This document shows, piece after piece, positions 2,359-9,882 of a stretch of 10,466 nucleotides of DNA (the first letter of the stretch is position 1; the number at the start of each line of letters is the position of its first letter). Source of the DNA: Sphingomonas bacterium (GTDB lineage: Bacteria > Pseudomonadota > Alphaproteobacteria > Sphingomonadales > Sphingomonadaceae); assembly GCF_903643065.1 (NCBI RefSeq), contig NZ_CAHJWX010000028.1, positions 1 to 10,466 on the forward strand, given 5' to 3'. The notes beneath the pieces are model-generated. The model saw only the letters and a program-made list of their open reading frames with translations. It was not told the origin of the DNA and did no database searches. The position numbers were made by a program, and so were the translations under genes.

Positions 2359-2368
2359 CGGGGATCAA
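2339..2368 (-). promoter_or_regulatory. Possible sigma70-type promoter for the SWIB gene
   Basis: On the minus strand TTGATC (2368-2363) and TATGCC (2344-2339) are separated by 18 bases, a weak fit to -35/-10 boxes. It starts within the end of the GT87-like gene, and its -10 lies inside the loop of the inverted repeat at 2319-2358. A separate promoter is plausible because the SWIB gene is unrelated to the operon before it and has its own strong RBS. Matches this weak occur by chance. Confidence 0.25.
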
Positions 2369-3684
2369 TCCGGCTTCGTGACCGCCTGAACGCCACGGTT
2401 CTTTGCCCGACGACCGGGCGAGGCGGCTCGATCCGCGCGCCAGACGTCGTGGATCGTCGCGCAGGACAGCGCGCTCGCCAGCACGAGCACGCCGGCCGGG
2501 CGCAGCAACTGGCCCAGCGTCAGCCAATAGTCCGCCACGATCGGCCCCGCGTGGACGCCGTCGCCAGCCGCCCGCGTGACGATGTGGACCAGGCCGAGAT
2601 CGACCGGCACCGACAGGAGGTAACCGACGATCAGCGCCACCCGCACGCCGATCCCGCGCGGGCGCTCGGAAAACGTCAGGAAGATGGTCAGCACCTGCGC
2701 ATAGCCGCCGCCGTCGGACGTCACGAGTGCGATCAGCGTCGCCAGGTTGAGCAACCGCTGCGGCGACACGGTCGCGGGCTGCCGCGCGGCGACCACCGCC
2801 GCGACCAGGATCAGGACCTGCACCCCGTGCACCACCGGCGGGATGACGGCGGCGAGGCCCCGCGTCCATCCCGGGCCGAGCGGGACGAGCGACCCGTTCA
2901 GCGCCGCGACCACCGGGCCATAGGCGGTGCTGTACCAGATGTCCCACAGGCTGGTGACCTCCCGCAGGTGGACGCTCCAGCCGATCAAATTGCCCGCGAG
3001 CGCCACCGGATCGCCGGCGCCCCAGCAGGCCCAGGACAGCAGGTACACGCCGCCCGTCGCCAGCAACGCTCCTCCGAACACGCGCCAGCGCCCATGCGGC
3101 AGCACGGCGAACGCCGTGGCGATCAGATAGACCTTGAGGTTGATCGTCAGCCCGAGCGCAAGCGAGCGCGACCGGACGCCGCGCAGCAACGGCCCGTGCG
3201 CGAGCACGAAGCAGGCGAGGCACACCAGGATGAGGTTGCCACGATCCAGCGCGTTCAGCATCGGCAACCCGAGCGTGAGCGCGACGGCGCGCGGCACGGC
3301 GGTGCGCCGGTCCTGCACCGTGAAGGTGGCCGCGATCAGCAGCACATCGAGCACGTACCAGCCGTGCAGCGCGATCGTGCCCACCCAGTCGCAGCCCCGC
3401 ACCGCCGCGTCGTTGCCGTCGAGGTAACAGCGCGGCAGCGACAGCGCCCTGAGCAGCATGAACGATACCGGCGGATAGAGCGTCCGCCAGCGATCATAGG
3501 CGCCGTCATGGCGGGACCACCAAGCGGTGTGGAACCAGTCCATCCAGTAATCGGCTGGATCGGGGTAGAAGGGTTGCGGCAGCCAGCCGCGCACGAGCAG
3601 ATGACCGACCGACCAGGCGGCACCCGCGACCACCGCGAGCGCCAGCGCCTGCTCGATCGTCCGGAACGACCGCGCCCGAATCAT
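2365..3684 (-). CDS. GT87-like polytopic membrane glycosyltransferase (GT-C fold)
   Basis: Protein of 439 residues with about ten hydrophobic segments, consistent with GT-C glycosyltransferases of the GT87/DUF2029 type, which use polyprenyl-phosphate sugars on the periplasmic side. A first helix (about 13-31) is followed by an acidic periplasmic-type loop, FYPDPADYWMDW, with Asp42, Asp45 and Asp49 as candidate catalytic residues, then the family-typical YPPVSF (70-75). NALDRGNLILVCL (from residue 144) and INLKVYLIATAF followed by a GRWR turn match the usual 'RGN' and 'K-P' helices of the family. The ATG at 3684 overlaps the TGA of the GtrA gene (ATGA) and lacks a Shine-Dalgarno sequence, so translation is probably coupled. 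As last gene of the operon it is the natural candidate for the final transfer of the lipid-linked sugar to a surface glycan. The acceptor and sugar are not known. Confidence 0.78.
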   Translation of the reverse strand: MIRARSFRTIEQALALAVVAGAAWSVGHLLVRGWLPQPFYPDPADYWMDWFHTAWWSRHDGAYDRWRTLYPPVSFMLLRALSLPRCYLDGNDAAVRGCDWVGTIALHGWYVLDVLLIAATFTVQDRRTAVPRAVALTLGLPMLNALDRGNLILVCLACFVLAHGPLLRGVRSRSLALGLTINLKVYLIATAFAVLPHGRWRVFGGALLATGGVYLLSWACWGAGDPVALAGNLIGWSVHLREVTSLWDIWYSTAYGPVVAALNGSLVPLGPGWTRGLAAVIPPVVHGVQVLILVAAVVAARQPATVSPQRLLNLATLIALVTSDGGGYAQVLTIFLTFSERPRGIGVRVALIVGYLLSVPVDLGLVHIVTRAAGDGVHAGPIVADYWLTLGQLLRPAGVLVLASALSCATIHDVWRADRAASPGRRAKNRGVQAVTKPD

Positions 3685-4079
3685 GCGGGCAGCGACCGGG
3701 GCCGACGGAACACCAGCGACCGCAGCGCCAGATAGTTGATCGCCGACGCGCCCAGCGTCGCCGCCAGCCCCGCCGCATAGGGCGACGCCGTCACCCGCTC
3801 GAACGCCGCCAGCAGCAGCAGGTTGACGAGGTAGTTGGACAGGTAGGCGAGCGCGAAGGACCGCTTCGAGCCGCGCTGGTCGCGGAACACGTGGCGGCTG
3901 TACGTCAGGTAGTTGAACGCGACGCCGCCGATTTGCGCCAAGCCTTGCGCGACATAGAGATTGGTCCCGCAGCGGATCAGCAGCGCGAACAGGCCGAAGC
4001 CGACGGCCGTGTTGATCGCGGCGGCTTGGTAGAAGCGGATCAGCTCGCCGAGCCGGCGCCGCGCCAACTCAGTCGGCAT
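3681..4079 (-). CDS. GtrA family membrane protein (putative lipid-linked sugar flippase)
   Basis: Protein of 132 residues, the usual GtrA length, with four predicted transmembrane helices at about 15-35, 41-59, 76-93 and 99-120. The helix-2 end FNYLTYSRHVF and the C-terminal NYLALRSLVFRR are the two related GtrA signatures (consensus NF-x-x-x-R-x-x-VF), reflecting the internal duplication of the family. GtrA proteins are thought to move undecaprenyl-phosphate-linked sugars across the inner membrane. The start at ATG 4079 overlaps the end of the GT2 gene by 11 bases, and the stop overlaps the GT87-like start. The gene order GT2-GtrA-GT-C matches the classical gtrB/gtrA/gtr-type O-antigen modification cassettes, although here the order of the first two is reversed compared with gtrABC. 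The assignment is firm; the cargo is inferred. Confidence 0.92.
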   Translation of the reverse strand: MPTELARRRLGELIRFYQAAAINTAVGFGLFALLIRCGTNLYVAQGLAQIGGVAFNYLTYSRHVFRDQRGSKRSFALAYLSNYLVNLLLLAAFERVTASPYAAGLAATLGASAINYLALRSLVFRRPRSLPA

Positions 4080-5004
4080 CGGGAAAGTTCACCCGCTCGC
4101 GCTCGATCACCAGCGGTGTCTCGCGACCACGCTCGGCGATCAGCCGGATCTGATCGCCCATCAGCCCCAGAAAGCCGAACAGCAGCGCGAGTTGCAGTTC
4201 GACCGCGATCGCCGCCGCCCACCCCCAGCCGCCATGGCCCAGCGCGGCGGCGACCAGCGCCAGCGGGATCAGCGCGAGGCCGATCGCGAGGCCGATCGCG
4301 CCCAGATAGAGCGGCGCGCGCAGCAGCCGCTTCGACGCGCTCGCCAAGCCGGAGAGCGCGAAGTCGAGCAGCGTGAAGAAGTCGTTGTTGGAGCGCCCGC
4401 CCACCCGCGCGGGGCGCGAATAGCCGACCAGCTCGATCGGCCAGCCCGTCTCCACCAGCATGCCGCGAAAGAACGGCTCCGGCTCACGCAGCCGCGCGAT
4501 CTGGGACACGACGCGGCGGGAATAGAGGCCAAAGCCGGTGGCGTTGGGGACGACCGGATAGTCGCCGAGTCGTCGCGCCAGCCCGTAGGACAGCCGCCGC
4601 GTCATCGCCAACCCGGCGGACGAGCGCTCCGACTCGCGCACCCCCAGCACGATGTCGGCGCCCGCGCGCCAGCGCCGGACGAACTCCGGCAACAAGGCCG
4701 GCGAGTCCTGAAAATCGGCGCACATGTTGATCACCGCGCGCCCGCGAGCCTGGAAAATCCCGTGGGTCGGCGAGCGCATCTGGCCGAAGTCGCGGGTGTT
4801 GACGATCAGCCGCACCCTCCGGTCGCGCGCGCACAGGTCCCGCAGGATCGGAACGGTGCGGTCCCGCGACGCATTGTCGATGAAGATCAGGTCGAAGCTG
4901 ACGCCCGTCGACTCGAGCTCGCCGATCACCGCTTGCGCGATGGCCAGCGCGTTGGCTTCCTCGTTGCGCGTCGGGATGACGACGGAGATGTCGGGGTCGG
5001 TCAT
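4069..5004 (-). CDS. GT2 family glycosyltransferase, GtrB/DPM-like
   Basis: Protein of 311 residues predicted to transfer a sugar from a nucleotide donor to undecaprenyl phosphate at the cytoplasmic face. It opens with DISVVIPTRNEEAN, followed by LIFIDNASRDRTVPIL (about 39-54) and the acidic metal-binding region CADFQDSP (95-102), where many relatives have (D/S)AD-x-QDPP. The conserved subfamily end ETPLVIERERVNFPD is present. Two C-terminal transmembrane helices (about 231-256 and 260-284) fit GtrB/PglF-like polyprenyl-phosphate glycosyltransferases. The start at ATG 5004 overlaps the SDR stop (ATGA) and begins directly before the domain; an in-frame start at 5118 would add 38 residues of no family character. 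The donor is inferred from the neighbours to be the CDP-linked sugar made by the three upstream genes. A different nucleotide sugar cannot be excluded. Confidence 0.9.
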   Translation of the reverse strand: MTDPDISVVIPTRNEEANALAIAQAVIGELESTGVSFDLIFIDNASRDRTVPILRDLCARDRRVRLIVNTRDFGQMRSPTHGIFQARGRAVINMCADFQDSPALLPEFVRRWRAGADIVLGVRESERSSAGLAMTRRLSYGLARRLGDYPVVPNATGFGLYSRRVVSQIARLREPEPFFRGMLVETGWPIELVGYSRPARVGGRSNNDFFTLLDFALSGLASASKRLLRAPLYLGAIGLAIGLALIPLALVAAALGHGGWGWAAAIAVELQLALLFGFLGLMGDQIRLIAERGRETPLVIERERVNFPDAD

Positions 5005-5990
5005 GCCACTTGGTCCAGCAGCGCCGGCCAACGGGTCAGCCATGCGACGGTGGCGTCGAGCGCCGCGTCGAGCGACGGCGCGACCAACCCCAGCTCGCGC
5101 GCGATCCGCGCCGTGCACGGCACGTAGCGATCGACGGGCCCGCCGGCGCGCGACGGCACGATGGCCGGCACGCCGAACCGCCGCGCGATCCGCCCGGCGA
5201 GATCGGCCATCTCCACCGCCTCGTCCGAACCGATATTATAGACCGGGCAGGCCGGCGTCGCCGAGTCGGCGATGGTCAGCAGCCAGCGGACCAGCTCATC
5301 GGCATGCAGGTAGCTGCGGTATACCGGCGTCCCCGCGCGCACCGCGATCGGCCGCCCCGCCAGGCCATCCGCCAGGAACTGGCCGATCGCGAAATGCTGG
5401 TCGCGCGGCAGGTATGGCCCGACGAACGCGAAGGCGCGCGCGATCGACACGGCCAGCCCCTGCTCGGCGCCGCCACGCGCGATCGCCGCCTCCGCCAGGC
5501 GCTTCGCCACCGCGTAATCGCGCTTGTAGGCGGGCAGCCCGACCGCGTCGCCGAACGGCGCGTCCTCGGCGAGCGCGGCGACCCCGGCGGGTTGCGTGCC
5601 GTATACCGCGCCGCTGCTGGCATAGACGATCCGCGCGGCGGGGCAGCATCGCGCGGCGAGCACCGCGAACCGCTCCGCCTGTTCCACGATCGCGGCGCGC
5701 TCCCCCAGCGGATCGGCGGCATGACGGCGCGCGTCGCTGGTGGTGGCGGCATGGACGATCACGTCCACGCGCGGCAGCGCGTCCGCCGTCAGCGCGTCGA
5801 GCGCGACCAGCTCGACGCCAGCGCTCAGCAGCTCGGGCGCGGTCGCCCGCAAGGTCTCCGGCCGACGCGCCGCCGCGATCACCCGGCCGATCCCGAACGG
5901 AGCCAGCAGCCCGCGCCCGAACGCGTCGAGGATCGACTTGCCGAAGAAACCGCTGCCGCCGATCACCAGCAGCGTGCGCGTCGGGTCCAT
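5001..5990 (-). CDS. NAD(P)-dependent nucleotide-sugar epimerase/dehydratase/reductase (extended SDR)
   Basis: Protein of 329 residues with an N-terminal Rossmann motif GGSGFFG (11-17), a VIVHAAT strand (78-83), YASSGAVYGT (123-132, with Ser125/Ser126) and the catalytic pair Tyr159/Lys163 in DYAVAK. Substrate-side elements follow: ARAFAFVGPYLPRDQHFAIG (184-203) and TPVYRSYLHADELVRWL (221-237), then VYNIGSDEAVEM. This is the O-antigen-cluster branch of the extended SDRs. It begins 3 bases after the stop of the HAD-ThDP gene and ends overlapping the GT2 start. From position in the operon it may act last on the nucleotide sugar, either reducing the new acetyl ketone (the job of YerF in yersiniose synthesis) or reducing/epimerising at C-4. 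It does not look like a CDP-glucose 4,6-dehydratase. The fold is certain, the reaction inferred. Confidence 0.88.
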   Translation of the reverse strand: MDPTRTLLVIGGSGFFGKSILDAFGRGLLAPFGIGRVIAAARRPETLRATAPELLSAGVELVALDALTADALPRVDVIVHAATTSDARRHAADPLGERAAIVEQAERFAVLAARCCPAARIVYASSGAVYGTQPAGVAALAEDAPFGDAVGLPAYKRDYAVAKRLAEAAIARGGAEQGLAVSIARAFAFVGPYLPRDQHFAIGQFLADGLAGRPIAVRAGTPVYRSYLHADELVRWLLTIADSATPACPVYNIGSDEAVEMADLAGRIARRFGVPAIVPSRAGGPVDRYVPCTARIARELGLVAPSLDAALDATVAWLTRWPALLDQVA

Positions 5991-5993
5991 CGG

Positions 5994-8474
5994 TCAACAG
6001 CCCGCCAGATAGTCGATCTCCGGCGTCATCCGGTCGATCGGGTTCGACTCCATCGATCCGGTCGCGGTGATGCGGCTGGTGATCTTGGGAAAATAGGTCT
6101 GTTCCGGATCGACCGGCACGATGAACGCCGCCGGGCCGGACGCGTCCAGCCGCGCCAGCACCGCCGGATCGCGGTTCCAGTCCGGCCCCAGCGTCAGTAC
6201 CGGCACGTCCCAGGCGGCGAACACGCGCCTCCAGTCGGGCAGGCCGAGCCCCGATCGCCGGTCGCAGCCGAGATACTTGCCACCGAAATAGCTTCGTTGC
6301 GTCATGCGGATCGACGCGTGGCCGCCATCGTCGAAGATGAAGATCTTCAGGTCCAGATCGTTGACCGCGACCGTGCCAAGCTCCTGCAGATTCTGCGCGA
6401 AGCCGCCATCGCCCTCGATCAGGATCGTGCGTCGTCCGCCGCCGCCGATCGCCGCGCCGATCGCGCCCGACAGGCCATAGCCCATCGACGCGAGCGACTT
6501 GTTGGTCAGCAGCCGCTGGCCGAAGCGCTGCCGATACAGCTGCATCGACAGCGTGAAGGCGCTGCCGCTGCTGCACGGGATGATCAGGTCGTCGTCCCTG
6601 GTCAGCGGCTCCAGCGCGACGATGAAGTCGTAGGGCGAGAGGAAGCCCTCGCCCGTGGTGTTGACCGGCTCCACGCGCGGCACCACGTCGCGGATGCGCC
6701 GGGCTTGCGCGAGCCAGTCGTCGTGCCGCGCGAGCGGCCGCGCGAACAGCCGCCGCGCGACATCGTCCGCGTCGACCGCCAATCCGAGATCGACGCGCGG
6801 ATGGCCCTTGGCGAGTTCGCCCGGGTCGATCTCGACCTGCACGATCGTCGCATCGCGACCGAAGGCCCGCCAGTTGAACCCGGTCTGCTGCAAGCCCAGC
6901 CGCGTCCCGATCGCGATGATCAGGTCGGCGCGCTGAATGACGATGTTGCTGGCGCGCTGGCCCCAGGTGTTGGGGCGCCCGAGATAGACCGGATCGTCGC
7001 CGTCCAGCCGATCGGCGCCGTTATAGGTGGTCATCGTCGGCACGCCGAGCGCGAGGAGTCGCTCGCGCAATGCGGCGGCGCCGGCATGCGAGACACCGCC
7101 ACCGATCAGCACCACCGGCCGCTCGGCGCGGTCATACAGCCCCGCGACCCGGTCGAGCACCGCCTCGCTGATCAGCGGCAGCACCGGCGGCGCGATCGGC
7201 GGCAGCGGCTCCTCGTCCACCGTCGCCGCCTGGACGTCGAGCGGGATTTCGAGGAACACCGGGCCCTTGCGCGGCGTCCAGCCGACCTGGAGCTTGTCCA
7301 GGAAGTCCGCCGCCCCGATCGGCGTCTCGAAGCGCCAGGCGAGCTTGGTCGTCGACCGGACCAGCGCGACGCCGTCGATCTCCTGGATGCCGCGCGAGCG
7401 CAGCTGGCCACGCGCGAGGTCGGCCGTCTTGACCTGCCCGCCGAGCACCAGCAGCTCGCGGCTTTCCAGATAGGCGCCGGCGAGCGCGGTGACGATGTTG
7501 GTCAGCCCCGGCCCCGCCGTCACCAGCGCCAGCGCCTTGGCCGGGGCGGCGATCTCGTTGAAATACTCCGCCGCGATCCCGGCGGCGACCTCGTGCACCA
7601 CCGGCACGCCGGTCAGATGGCGGTCGAGGCTTTCGGTCAGGTGCATGATGTTGCCCCCGCCGACATAGAAATAATGCGTGTAGCCGGCGGCGGCGAGCCA
7701 TCGCGCGATCTGGTCGGCATATTTGACGCGGACCGGCGCCGGCGGGGTCAGCAGGGCGCGCAGCAAGGCCAGCGCCGTCGTTGGATCGAGGCTGTCCGGG
7801 TCGGCTTGGTCATAGCCCCAGCCGGCGTGGAGCGTTCGATGCACGCGGCCGGCGAACGGCTGGAGGTGCGCGCGCATGTCGTCGAGGTAGACGACCGGCC
7901 GCGCGTCGTCGTCCAGCCAGCCCTGCGCCTCGGCGACCGCGAGCTTGGAGCCGTGCCGCCGAACGTCCTCCTGCCCGAAAACCGGAACGACATCCGCCTC
8001 GTGAAAGGCGAGCGTGCGGTGGATCGAGGCGACGTCGCGCGTCGACAGGATCGCGAAGCGATCGGGGTGCTGGACGAGCAGCGGCCGCAGCTCGTGGAAG
8101 AAGTCGTACGGCGCCATCAGCCGGGGCCAGTCCGCGTCCTCCATCATCGCCGCGCGCGCGGCGAAGAAACGCGTCGCGAAGTCGCGGTCGGGCTGATCCG
8201 GCGTGAGCGTCGCCAGCTCGGCCGGCGACGCGCGGCGCTGCTCGTCGTGCAGTCGGTTATACTGCCACGCGTCGGTGACGACGGCGCGGAACGCCATGAA
8301 CTCGTCGAACGACACATCCTGCCGATAACCGGCGCGCCCGGCGACCGAGCGGTTGCACACCGACCAGGCCTCGGACGCGCTGTTGAAGAGCACGCCGTCG
8401 AAGTCGAGCACGATCAATGGCTCGACGGTCCGTTCGGCGACGAACCGGCGGGTCAGGTCGGATAGGGCGACCAT
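5994..8474 (-). CDS. Fusion of a HAD phosphatase-like domain and a ThDP-dependent acetolactate-synthase-like enzyme
   Basis: One uninterrupted reading frame of 826 residues. Residues about 18-240 are a HAD domain with all four motifs: IVLDFDGVLF (Asp24, Asp26), ILSTRD (Ser144/Thr145), Lys177 in GSKLA, and VVYLDDM (Asp198/Asp199). After a short TPPAP linker comes a complete ThDP enzyme. Its Pyr domain (about 253-415) has the activating Glu295 in VVHEVAAGIAAEYF and TAGPGLTN; the central domain spans about 435-590; and the PP domain (about 620-790) has GDGGF (Asp689) and, 27 residues on, Asp716 where most relatives have Asn. The C-terminal TGSMESNPIDRMTPE resembles sugar-pathway ThDP enzymes, not IlvB. 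By neighbourhood it may, like YerE, add a two-carbon unit from pyruvate to C-4 of a CDP-4-keto-3,6-dideoxyhexose. The start at 8474 lies 4 bases after the RfbH-type gene; ATG 8516 would overlap it by 38 bases. The HAD domain's role is unknown. Confidence 0.88.
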   Translation of the reverse strand: MVALSDLTRRFVAERTVEPLIVLDFDGVLFNSASEAWSVCNRSVAGRAGYRQDVSFDEFMAFRAVVTDAWQYNRLHDEQRRASPAELATLTPDQPDRDFATRFFAARAAMMEDADWPRLMAPYDFFHELRPLLVQHPDRFAILSTRDVASIHRTLAFHEADVVPVFGQEDVRRHGSKLAVAEAQGWLDDDARPVVYLDDMRAHLQPFAGRVHRTLHAGWGYDQADPDSLDPTTALALLRALLTPPAPVRVKYADQIARWLAAAGYTHYFYVGGGNIMHLTESLDRHLTGVPVVHEVAAGIAAEYFNEIAAPAKALALVTAGPGLTNIVTALAGAYLESRELLVLGGQVKTADLARGQLRSRGIQEIDGVALVRSTTKLAWRFETPIGAADFLDKLQVGWTPRKGPVFLEIPLDVQAATVDEEPLPPIAPPVLPLISEAVLDRVAGLYDRAERPVVLIGGGVSHAGAAALRERLLALGVPTMTTYNGADRLDGDDPVYLGRPNTWGQRASNIVIQRADLIIAIGTRLGLQQTGFNWRAFGRDATIVQVEIDPGELAKGHPRVDLGLAVDADDVARRLFARPLARHDDWLAQARRIRDVVPRVEPVNTTGEGFLSPYDFIVALEPLTRDDDLIIPCSSGSAFTLSMQLYRQRFGQRLLTNKSLASMGYGLSGAIGAAIGGGGRRTILIEGDGGFAQNLQELGTVAVNDLDLKIFIFDDGGHASIRMTQRSYFGGKYLGCDRRSGLGLPDWRRVFAAWDVPVLTLGPDWNRDPAVLARLDASGPAAFIVPVDPEQTYFPKITSRITATGSMESNPIDRMTPEIDYLAGC

Positions 8475-8478
8475 CGTC

Positions 8479-9882
8479 TCAGCGCCCCAGGAACGCCGCG
8501 ACCGTGTCGGCGACATAGCCGATGTGATCGCCGCCGATGCCGGGGAACAGCCCGATCCAGAAGGTCTGTTCGGTGACGAGGTCCGCGTTCGTCAACGGGC
8601 CCGCCACGCGGACGTCGCGCCCGCGCATATAGGGCTGGCGCAGCAGGTTGCCGCCGAACAGCAGCCGGGTGCCGATCCTGCGGGCCTCCAGATGTTTGAC
8701 CAGCGCGTCGCGGCTCACCCCCGACTCGGGCCGGATCGTCAGCGGGAAGCCGAACCAGGACGGCTCGCTGTTCGGCGTCGCCTCCGGCAGGAGGAAGACG
8801 TCCGTGTGACGCCGGAACACCTCCAGCAGTGCCGCGAAATTGCGTCTCCGCGCCGCGATGAAGCCGTCCAGCCGATCGAGCTGCGCCAGGCCGACGGCGG
8901 CCTGCATGTCCGTGATCTTCAGATTATAGCCGGCATGGCTGTAGGTGTATTTGTGGTCGTAGTTCTGCGGCAGGTCGCCCAGCTTGCGCGCGAACCGCTT
9001 GAAGCAGGTGTTGTCGGCGCCCGGCGCGCACCAGCAGTCGCGGCCCCAGTCGCGCATCGACTCAATCAGCCGCTTGAGGCGCGGCTGGTTGGTGAACACC
9101 GCCCCGCCCTCGCCCATCGTGATATGGTGCGCCGGGTAGAAGGACAGCGTGCCGACGTCGCCGAACGTGCCGACCTCGCGCCCGTCATAGGTCGCGCCGA
9201 GCGCGTCGCAGCAATCCTCGATCACGTACAGGTCGTGCTTGCGGGCGACCCGCATCACCTCGCCCAGGTCGAACGGATTGCCCAGCGTGTGCGCGATCAT
9301 GATCGCGCGCGTGCGCGGCCCCACCGCCGCCTCGATCGCGTCGGCGCGGATGTTGTAGGTCGGCACGTCGATGTCGACGAACACGGGGGTGAGGCCGTAT
9401 TGGAGTGCCGGGTTGACGGTGGTCGGGAAACCGGCGGCGCAGGTGATCACCTCGTCGCCGGCCTGCAGCGCGTCGTTCCGCAGCGCGGGCGAGGTGAGCG
9501 CCGCCAGCGCGAGCAGGTTGGCGGACGAGCCGGAATTGGTGGTGAGCACGTGGCGAACGCCGATCCGCTCGCCCAGCCGGCGCTCGAACGCCTCGTTGAA
9601 CCGGCCGGCGGTCAGCCAGAAATCAAGCGCGGAGTCGACCAGCATCCGCATGTCCGCCGCGCCATAGACCTTGCCGGCCACGGGCACCGGGCTGACCCCC
9701 GGCTGGAACGGCTTGGGCGCATGCGCGGTGTCGGCATAGCGGCTCACCAGCGTCCCGATCGCCTCGCGCAGCCCCTCCGGGCCGTCCGTCGCGACGATGT
9801 CGTCGGCGATCGCGTCCAGCAACGCGGCGCTGCCGACGCCGCCGAGCGCACCCGCCGCCTCCAGGCGCTCGCTGTAGAGCAT
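8479..9882 (-). CDS. rfbH: RfbH/E1-type CDP-4-keto-6-deoxy-D-glucose 3-dehydrase
   Basis: PMP-dependent iron-sulfur enzyme of the DegT/AspC fold that removes the C-3 hydroxyl of CDP-4-keto-6-deoxyglucose, the entry step to 3,6-dideoxyhexoses (ascarylose, abequose, paratose, tyvelose, yersiniose). The 467-residue protein has His252 in [14 protein letters not shown], where aminotransferases carry the PLP lysine. Its cysteines Cys225, Cys283, Cys285 and Cys293 give exactly the C-X57-C-X-C-X7-C [2Fe-2S] pattern known for E1. The family pattern [10 protein letters not shown] and [10 protein letters not shown] lies before the catalytic core. It is about 30 residues longer at the N-terminus than the known enzymes. 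The start at ATG 9882 has a G-rich GGGGAGACGGGG tract just upstream and is the first gene of the operon. The partner E3 reductase is not in the window. Equivalent names in other systems are DdhC, AscC and YerC. Confidence 0.95.

Follow-up and report, generated by a model that had tools for sequence, protein, structure and literature searches.

A six-gene Sphingomonas cassette inferred to couple the last steps of branched 3,6-dideoxyhexose synthesis to three-component glycosylation

In contig NZ_CAHJWX010000028.1 of a Sphingomonas bacterium, six tightly packed genes combine enzymes of sugar synthesis with the parts of a lipid-linked glycosylation system, which raises the question of whether the sugar made by the first set is the one attached by the second, and what that sugar might be. 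The window analysed is this entire contig of 10,466 bases, from a 2.6-Mb assembly that is 72% complete and divided into 486 contigs. The initial annotation described a self-contained cassette that makes, loads, flips and attaches a rare sugar. The part of this description that treats the sugar and transfer genes as one conserved unit proved well founded; its claims of self-containment, of a two-carbon (C2) transfer and of a new kind of system were not supported. The reading that we favour, with a probability of about 0.58, is that of a periplasmic glycosylation system of the three-component type, joined to the final reactions that make its own donor, a branched 3,6-dideoxyhexose.

The six open reading frames (ORFs), initially described as tightly spaced or overlapping, were all confirmed on the minus strand, where they are open throughout and span positions 9882 to 2365. 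They encode, in order, the dehydrase E1 (RfbH), a fusion of a HAD phosphatase with a thiamine diphosphate (ThDP)-dependent enzyme, a short-chain dehydrogenase/reductase (SDR), a GtrB-like family 2 glycosyltransferase (GT2), GtrA, and a GT-C glycosyltransferase with a PimE-like predicted fold. As read from the sequence, each junction is an overlap or a gap of at most 4 bp. The E1 stop codon lies 4 bp from the fusion gene if the inner ATG of the latter (8474) is used, the ATG at 8516 overlapping E1; the fusion and SDR genes are separated by 3 bp; the SDR and GT2 genes share an ATGA overlap, if GT2 is taken to begin at 5004 (311 aa); GT2 and GtrA overlap by 11 bp; and GtrA and GT-C meet in another ATGA overlap.

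Relatives were sought with the ThDP protein (4305 at an E value of 1e-10 among 7998 scored, the best 120 being listed), and 83 loci were compared, comprising the best 80 of 138 confirmed loci from the genome scan and three from genomes of the same family. The near-copies L088 and L091 (of L011 and L018) were excluded from these counts, L003–L007 being shorter pieces of the same genomes, and the mutual near-copies L032/L033/L039 and L028/L029/L030 were retained, so the counts lean on them. Matches were counted anywhere in a stretch, with thresholds chosen after inspection of the score lists; the stretches are of unequal length, and absences near contig ends carry little weight. Adjacent GT2 and GtrA genes were found in 17 of the 22 loci with a window-type HAD and the complete GT2-GtrA-GT-C trio in 14, versus 12 and 2, respectively, of the 61 loci without this HAD. 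Gene order is thus conserved beyond the sugar genes; its absence was one of the outcomes that the initial annotation had named as refuting its reading. Identity to the window proteins in the 14 trio loci ranged from 34 to 83% for E1, HAD, ThDP, GT2, GtrA and GT-C, the GT-C enzyme being the most variable (34–47%). Close relatives of the SDR (49–63% identity) were present in only four of these loci (L008, L009, L025 and L089), the best match in the other ten being at 26–35% and mostly partial, or absent. Since the six-gene run recurs in 14 related loci despite such divergence of the proteins, the SDR aside, it is more than a chance arrangement. The usual order in sphingomonad and Caulobacter loci is RfbF-RfbG-E1-aldolase-HAD-ThDP-SDR-OPX-Wzz-GT2-GtrA-GT-C, and the RfbF, RfbG, aldolase, OPX and Wzz genes of this larger cluster are not in the window.

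From the gene content, the family and fold of the products, the conserved linkage and the alternation of genes described below, which are what the analysis shows, we infer every reaction, as well as the donor and acceptor and which way the sugar is transported, as follows. RfbF and RfbG, encoded elsewhere in the genome, would supply CDP-4-keto-6-deoxyglucose; E1, partnered in trans by an electron-transfer reductase, would remove the hydroxyl of this sugar at C3. After decarboxylating a 2-keto acid, the ThDP domain would join the resulting acyl group to the ketone at C4, and the SDR would reduce the ketone newly formed. The fused HAD domain would act on the 2-keto acid, or else on the branch, to strip it of a phosphate. 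GT2 would transfer the branched 3,6-dideoxyhexose from its nucleotide to undecaprenyl phosphate, GtrA would flip the lipid-linked sugar and the GT-C enzyme would attach it to a surface glycan. Phosphate removal by the HAD domain would make the branch more likely to be a polyhydroxyalkyl chain than the two carbons of yersiniose.

The assignment of E1 (8479..9882, minus strand) as a CDP-4-keto-6-deoxyglucose 3-dehydrase, using pyridoxamine phosphate and a [2Fe-2S] cluster, is based on a full-length match to NCBIfam RfbH (701.5 bits, cut-off 423), on matches to the solved E1 structures 3bcx (639 bits) and 3bb8 (635 bits), and on the pattern Cys225-x57-Cys283-x1-Cys285-x7-Cys293, plus His252. We take the four cysteines to be those of the cluster and His252 to be the residue replacing the pyridoxal phosphate lysine. 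E1 is present as a single copy in its genome, in which a different contig (C1) encodes proteins exceeding the cut-offs for RfbF (glucose-1-phosphate cytidylyltransferase, C1:5983-6750) and RfbG (CDP-glucose 4,6-dehydratase, C1:6771-7802). Neither an E3 reductase, sought only in the window and not in the rest of the genome, nor a donor-forming enzyme was found among the ten window proteins scanned with Pfam, and the cassette is therefore not self-contained. On contig C1 (L104:5977-9608), RfbF-RfbG are followed by RmlC-like and C-methyltransferase-like genes (labelled by eye), and this cluster is apparently a second CDP-6-deoxysugar pathway of the same genome.

The second gene, initially annotated simply as encoding a ThDP enzyme, does encode a ThDP domain, a putative carboligase, but a HAD phosphatase domain fused to it had been overlooked. 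The HAD domain (7728..8474, minus strand; ORF start at ATG 8516 or 8474) corresponds to residues 15–263 of the 840-aa protein, and its DxD, S/T, K and DD motifs are invariant in 15 of 15 aligned rows; a PDB sequence search with this domain gave chance matches only. In the C-terminal ThDP domain (5994..7727, minus strand), the TPP_enzyme N, M and C models all exceeded their Pfam cut-offs, and the closest solved chains were 8rph (302.8 bits), 5ahk, presumably PpYerE (214.7 bits), and an acetolactate synthase (176.5 bits). The first of these is JanthE (PMC12188165; this and the other PMC reports are cited from the parts accessible to us). By sequence score, the domain is a predicted YerE-like carboligase, nearer to the YerE-like than to the acetolactate synthase structures. 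In the tree of ThDP domains, the window's half grouped with the unfused L008, P0006 and P0013, and four other fused proteins formed a separate clade. The ThDP half rejected a single origin of the fusion (p-AU 2.5e-165), whereas the HAD half, in which the fused rows stood together (support 77/76), did not, suggesting that fusion took place twice, or once together with an exchange. That the fusion was repeated or exchanged argues that both activities act in sequence. At the end that binds Mg, where NN is usual, the GDG motif reads FDDGG in the window and FHDQG in most close relatives. The SDR that follows (5001..5990, minus strand) is a member of the extended Epimerase family (72.9 bits, over the cut-off), with GGSGFFG and YAVAK visible in the translation, and may reduce the ketone left on the branch, a role modelled on the reductase step that has been put forward in C-4 branched sugar synthesis (PMC4753412).

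HpcH/HpaI-type aldolases and NeuB-like synthases are the kinds of enzyme that make 4-hydroxy-2-keto acids. The former were found in 56 of the 83 loci and the latter in 11, and they never co-occurred. The same set contained a 3-dehydroquinate synthase (DHQS)-like protein in 39 loci, the window-type HAD in 22 and a second HAD in nine, no two of them together, and a small SDR accompanied the DHQS-like protein in 37 of its 39 loci, versus one of the 44 others. By family, each of these three alternatives is a phosphate-removing enzyme. Switches among the three phosphate types account for at least seven changes on the ThDP tree, undecided rows having been set aside. ErwE has been reported to refuse pyruvate and to prefer 4-hydroxy-2-oxo acids, MMAR_2332, from caryophyllose synthesis, being similar (PMC12247030), and JanthE accepts 4-hydroxy-2-oxovalerate with benzaldehyde (PMC12188165). 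Because the aldolase or NeuB-like and phosphate-removing genes alternate, and given what ErwE and MMAR_2332 reportedly prefer, the simplest reading would be that a 4-hydroxy-2-keto acid, once dephosphorylated, serves as donor to the ThDP enzyme, and the branch is probably not the two carbons of yersiniose. The C2 transfer first proposed thus gives way to the longer donor that neighbouring genes in the relatives indicate. The DHQS-like, small SDR and aldolase set is a candidate maker of a 7-deoxy 2-keto acid, through phosphate elimination without ring closure. The DHQS-like protein lies beside the small SDR and the HpcH-type aldolase in the loci with cluster c6, among them L027–L030, L032, L035 and L036.

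The alternative that survives best, although we consider it improbable, is a YerE-type two-carbon transfer from pyruvate, giving a yersiniose-like 4-C-(1-hydroxyethyl) sugar, with the HAD domain doing something else. YerE prefers pyruvate and JanthE accepts it (PMC12247030, PMC12188165), and the window and a few relatives have no aldolase or NeuB-like gene. Nor was the aldolase found in five whole draft genomes, those of L009 (S. immobilis), L021 (Novosphingobium profundi), L014 (Sphingosinithalassobacter portus), L012 (a metagenome-assembled genome) and L024 (small and incomplete), in a search that detected its positive control, the L017 genome; a NeuB-like gene was found in none of three aldolase-less genomes, in a search with no positive control. 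As the aldolase is missing genome-wide in five relatives too, the window's case is more than missing data, and forms without an aldolase have to rely on pyruvate or on a keto acid of other origin. However, the HAD domain is fused to the ThDP domain with every motif residue kept, a phosphatase would be superfluous for a pyruvate donor, and the close unfused relatives L008 and L089 retain the aldolase. The edd gene exceeded its cut-off in all three aldolase-less isolate genomes tried (the window's incomplete genome gave partial matches, below the cut-off), and 2-keto-3-deoxy-6-phosphogluconate (KDPG) is thus a candidate source keto acid for these forms.

As for the transfer genes, the GtrB/ArnC-like GT2 (4069..5004, minus strand; a longer start at 5118 is possible) exceeded the Glycos_transf_2 cut-off and matched the solved chains of sll0501 (5ekp, 128 bits) and ArnC (9hwj, 60 bits), and is a predicted polyprenyl-phosphate sugar synthase. 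GtrA (3681..4079, minus strand; GtrA_DPMS_TM 54 bits, cut-off 26.1) is a putative flippase for the lipid-linked sugar. The GT-C protein (2365..3684, minus strand) had no Pfam or NCBIfam match, and its PDB sequence search yielded chance matches only. The predicted model matched PimE, ALG3, ALG6, PMT and ArnT in fold only, and its likeness to GT87, the PimE family, is likewise at the fold level, with no match to the family model. In two Caulobacteraceae loci, the GT-C gene is immediately followed by a second GT-C relative (L023:18575-19990 and L076:15432-15830, the latter copy cut by the contig end).

An alignment search with GT-C was positive in 19 of 397 family genomes. The window-type ThDP is sporadic in this family (six of 397 genomes, including that of the window, and none of the ten same-genus genomes listed), and four of its six genomes (the window's own, G084, G258 and G329) were among the 19, no GT-C being found at 1e-20 in the other two (G028 and G177). 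The remaining 15 loci (L118–L132), retrieved on the grounds of carrying GT-C, all contain OPX, Wzz and GT2, and 14 encode a second ThDP family, the exception ending at a contig edge; the one member tested was nearest to JanthE (410 bits). Twelve of the 15 have the aldolase and two a NeuB-like gene, and 14 have exactly one phosphate-removing gene, of the inositol-monophosphatase family (nine), HAD (four, with only 77–105 bits on the second HAD model and Pfam confirmation in two) or DHQS-like (one). Since the trio adjoins sugar genes in 14 of 22 loci and GT-C co-occurs with ThDP, sugar making and lipid-linked transfer appear to belong together. An ordinary common-sugar cassette that adjoins branched-sugar genes merely through a shared polysaccharide region would account for the separation of the trio from the sugar genes by OPX and Wzz export genes in relatives, and many known three-component systems do use UDP-glucose (PMC11127046). 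We nevertheless think this explanation quite unlikely, because in the window, which has no export genes, the trio directly adjoins the sugar genes through an ATGA overlap, and because, for 18 of the 19 genomes, the GT-C search alone arrived at ThDP sugar loci, the remaining one being cut by a contig end. A decaying, non-producing remnant of the larger cluster, as might be supposed from the five genes missing from the window, the weak OPX matches in its genome and the apparently intermediate S. immobilis locus (L009, where RfbG lies upstream and a short ORF resembles Wzz), is very improbable in view of the six open frames, the intact E1, HAD and SDR catalytic motifs, the tight translational coupling and the presence of RfbF and RfbG elsewhere in the genome.

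Several observations weigh against the favoured reading of a glycosylation system coupled to its own branched-sugar synthesis. The window contains neither an aldolase nor a NeuB-like gene, and the aldolase search of its genome gave one weak partial match (33% over 87 residues). On the ThDP tree, the window-type HAD has a single origin, and the fact that it never occurs with DHQS therefore represents just one event. Among the 48 loci of at least 19 kb, eight have no recognised phosphate-removing gene and six have neither the aldolase nor NeuB. The GT2-GtrA pair is missing from five of the 22 HAD-type loci and is far rarer outside them, and no E3 was detected among the window proteins. Finally, E1 is present in only four of the 15 GT-C loci L118–L132, so GT-C does not go with 3-deoxysugars specifically.

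A broader proposal, which we advance tentatively and regard as less probable than not, is that these loci form a modular and hitherto undescribed class of systems that modify surface glycans with undecaprenyl-phosphate-linked higher-carbon branched sugars, with a dephosphorylated 2-keto-3-deoxy acid as the branch. Interchangeable carbon-joining (aldolase or NeuB-like) and phosphate-removing (HAD, inositol-phosphatase or DHQS) cartridges would feed one of the two ThDP families, and one GT-C family would attach the product; the aldolase-less HAD-ThDP form would draw a phosphorylated keto acid from central metabolism, such as the KDPG of the Entner-Doudoroff pathway.

The cassette resembles the yersiniose A pathway of Yersinia pseudotuberculosis, in which CDP-3,6-dideoxy-4-keto-glucose from E1 is extended at C4 by the decarboxylase-type ThDP enzyme YerE (PMC12247030). 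It differs in its fused HAD and lipid-loading trio and in the aldolase or NeuB-like enzyme added in relatives, YerE preferring pyruvate. ErwE (erwiniose) and MMAR_2332 (caryophyllose) are comparable at the level of the enzyme, both being YerE-like and reportedly favouring 2-keto acids that carry a hydroxyl group (PMC12247030); the caryophyllose branch is a 1,3,4,5-tetrahydroxyhexyl chain (PMC5706390), whereas the terminal part of the window's branch is only predicted. JanthE, from Janthinobacterium, is the nearest solved structure to both ThDP families, but has CDG where the window has GDG (PMC12247030, PMC12188165). The gtrABC serotype-conversion cassettes also comprise a GtrB-like GT2, GtrA and a GT-C enzyme, but use a housekeeping donor such as glucose, whereas here the sugar-making genes share the operon. 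PimE mannosyltransferase shares the predicted fold of GT-C, at 11% identity and with no family-model match. The pentofuranose system of Citrobacter youngae O1/O2 likewise has lipid charging, a flippase, a GT-C enzyme and dedicated sugar-making genes (PMC11127046), but there phosphoribosyl pyrophosphate charges the lipid and the sugar is finished on it, whereas a CDP-sugar made via E1 and a ThDP carboligase is predicted here.

Glucose, galactose and pentofuranoses are known to be attached by three-component systems that use a GT-C enzyme and a lipid-linked donor (PMC11127046), and YerE-like branching is known from yersiniose, erwiniose and caryophyllose (PMC12247030). Since pentofuranose systems with their own sugar-making enzymes are already in print (PMC11127046), the cassette is not the new kind of system initially claimed but a putative new variant of three-component glycosylation, carrying a higher-carbon branched dideoxysugar. 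Each part is of a known kind, but in the open literature we did not find a description of the way in which they are combined or of where the side branch probably comes from. No publication joining YerE-like branching to three-component glycosylation was found there, although overlap is possible with an in-silico survey that reportedly covers more than 200 YerE-like clusters. If the reading is correct, the donor range of three-component glycosylation would be widened, and a signature of an aldolase or NeuB-like gene, a HAD, inositol-phosphatase-like or DHQS-like gene, a YerE/JanthE-like ThDP gene and the GT-C trio would help to find branched higher-carbon sugars in environmental bacteria with uncharacterised surface glycans. 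The origin of the branch donor in caryophyllose and erwiniose would also become testable: if a DHQS-like enzyme removed phosphate but closed no ring, and the small SDR acted next, the product would be a 7-deoxy 4,5,6-trihydroxy-2-keto acid, the very piece expected for the caryophyllose branch. The KDPG proposal, if true, would tie sugar catabolism to the surface coat.

Matches to the ThDP domain in 34 phage and 1024 plasmid records were all below 60% identity (those listed were at 23–28%, and the annotated ones were mostly acetolactate synthases), and a mobile carrier is thus unsupported. An empty insertion site was not demonstrated in 11 same-genus loci with ApbE, in which SWIB, DUF1003 and the S9 peptidase were not within about 1.5 kb. 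In the window, a Pfam scan identified an ApbE gene upstream of the cassette and SWIB, DUF1003 and prolyl-oligopeptidase (S9 peptidase) genes downstream, all outside the system described here. In several of the loci L121–L128, genes recognised by eye as encoding a sigma factor, an anti-sigma factor and a TonB-type receptor lie upstream of the aldolase, divergent beside the cassette.

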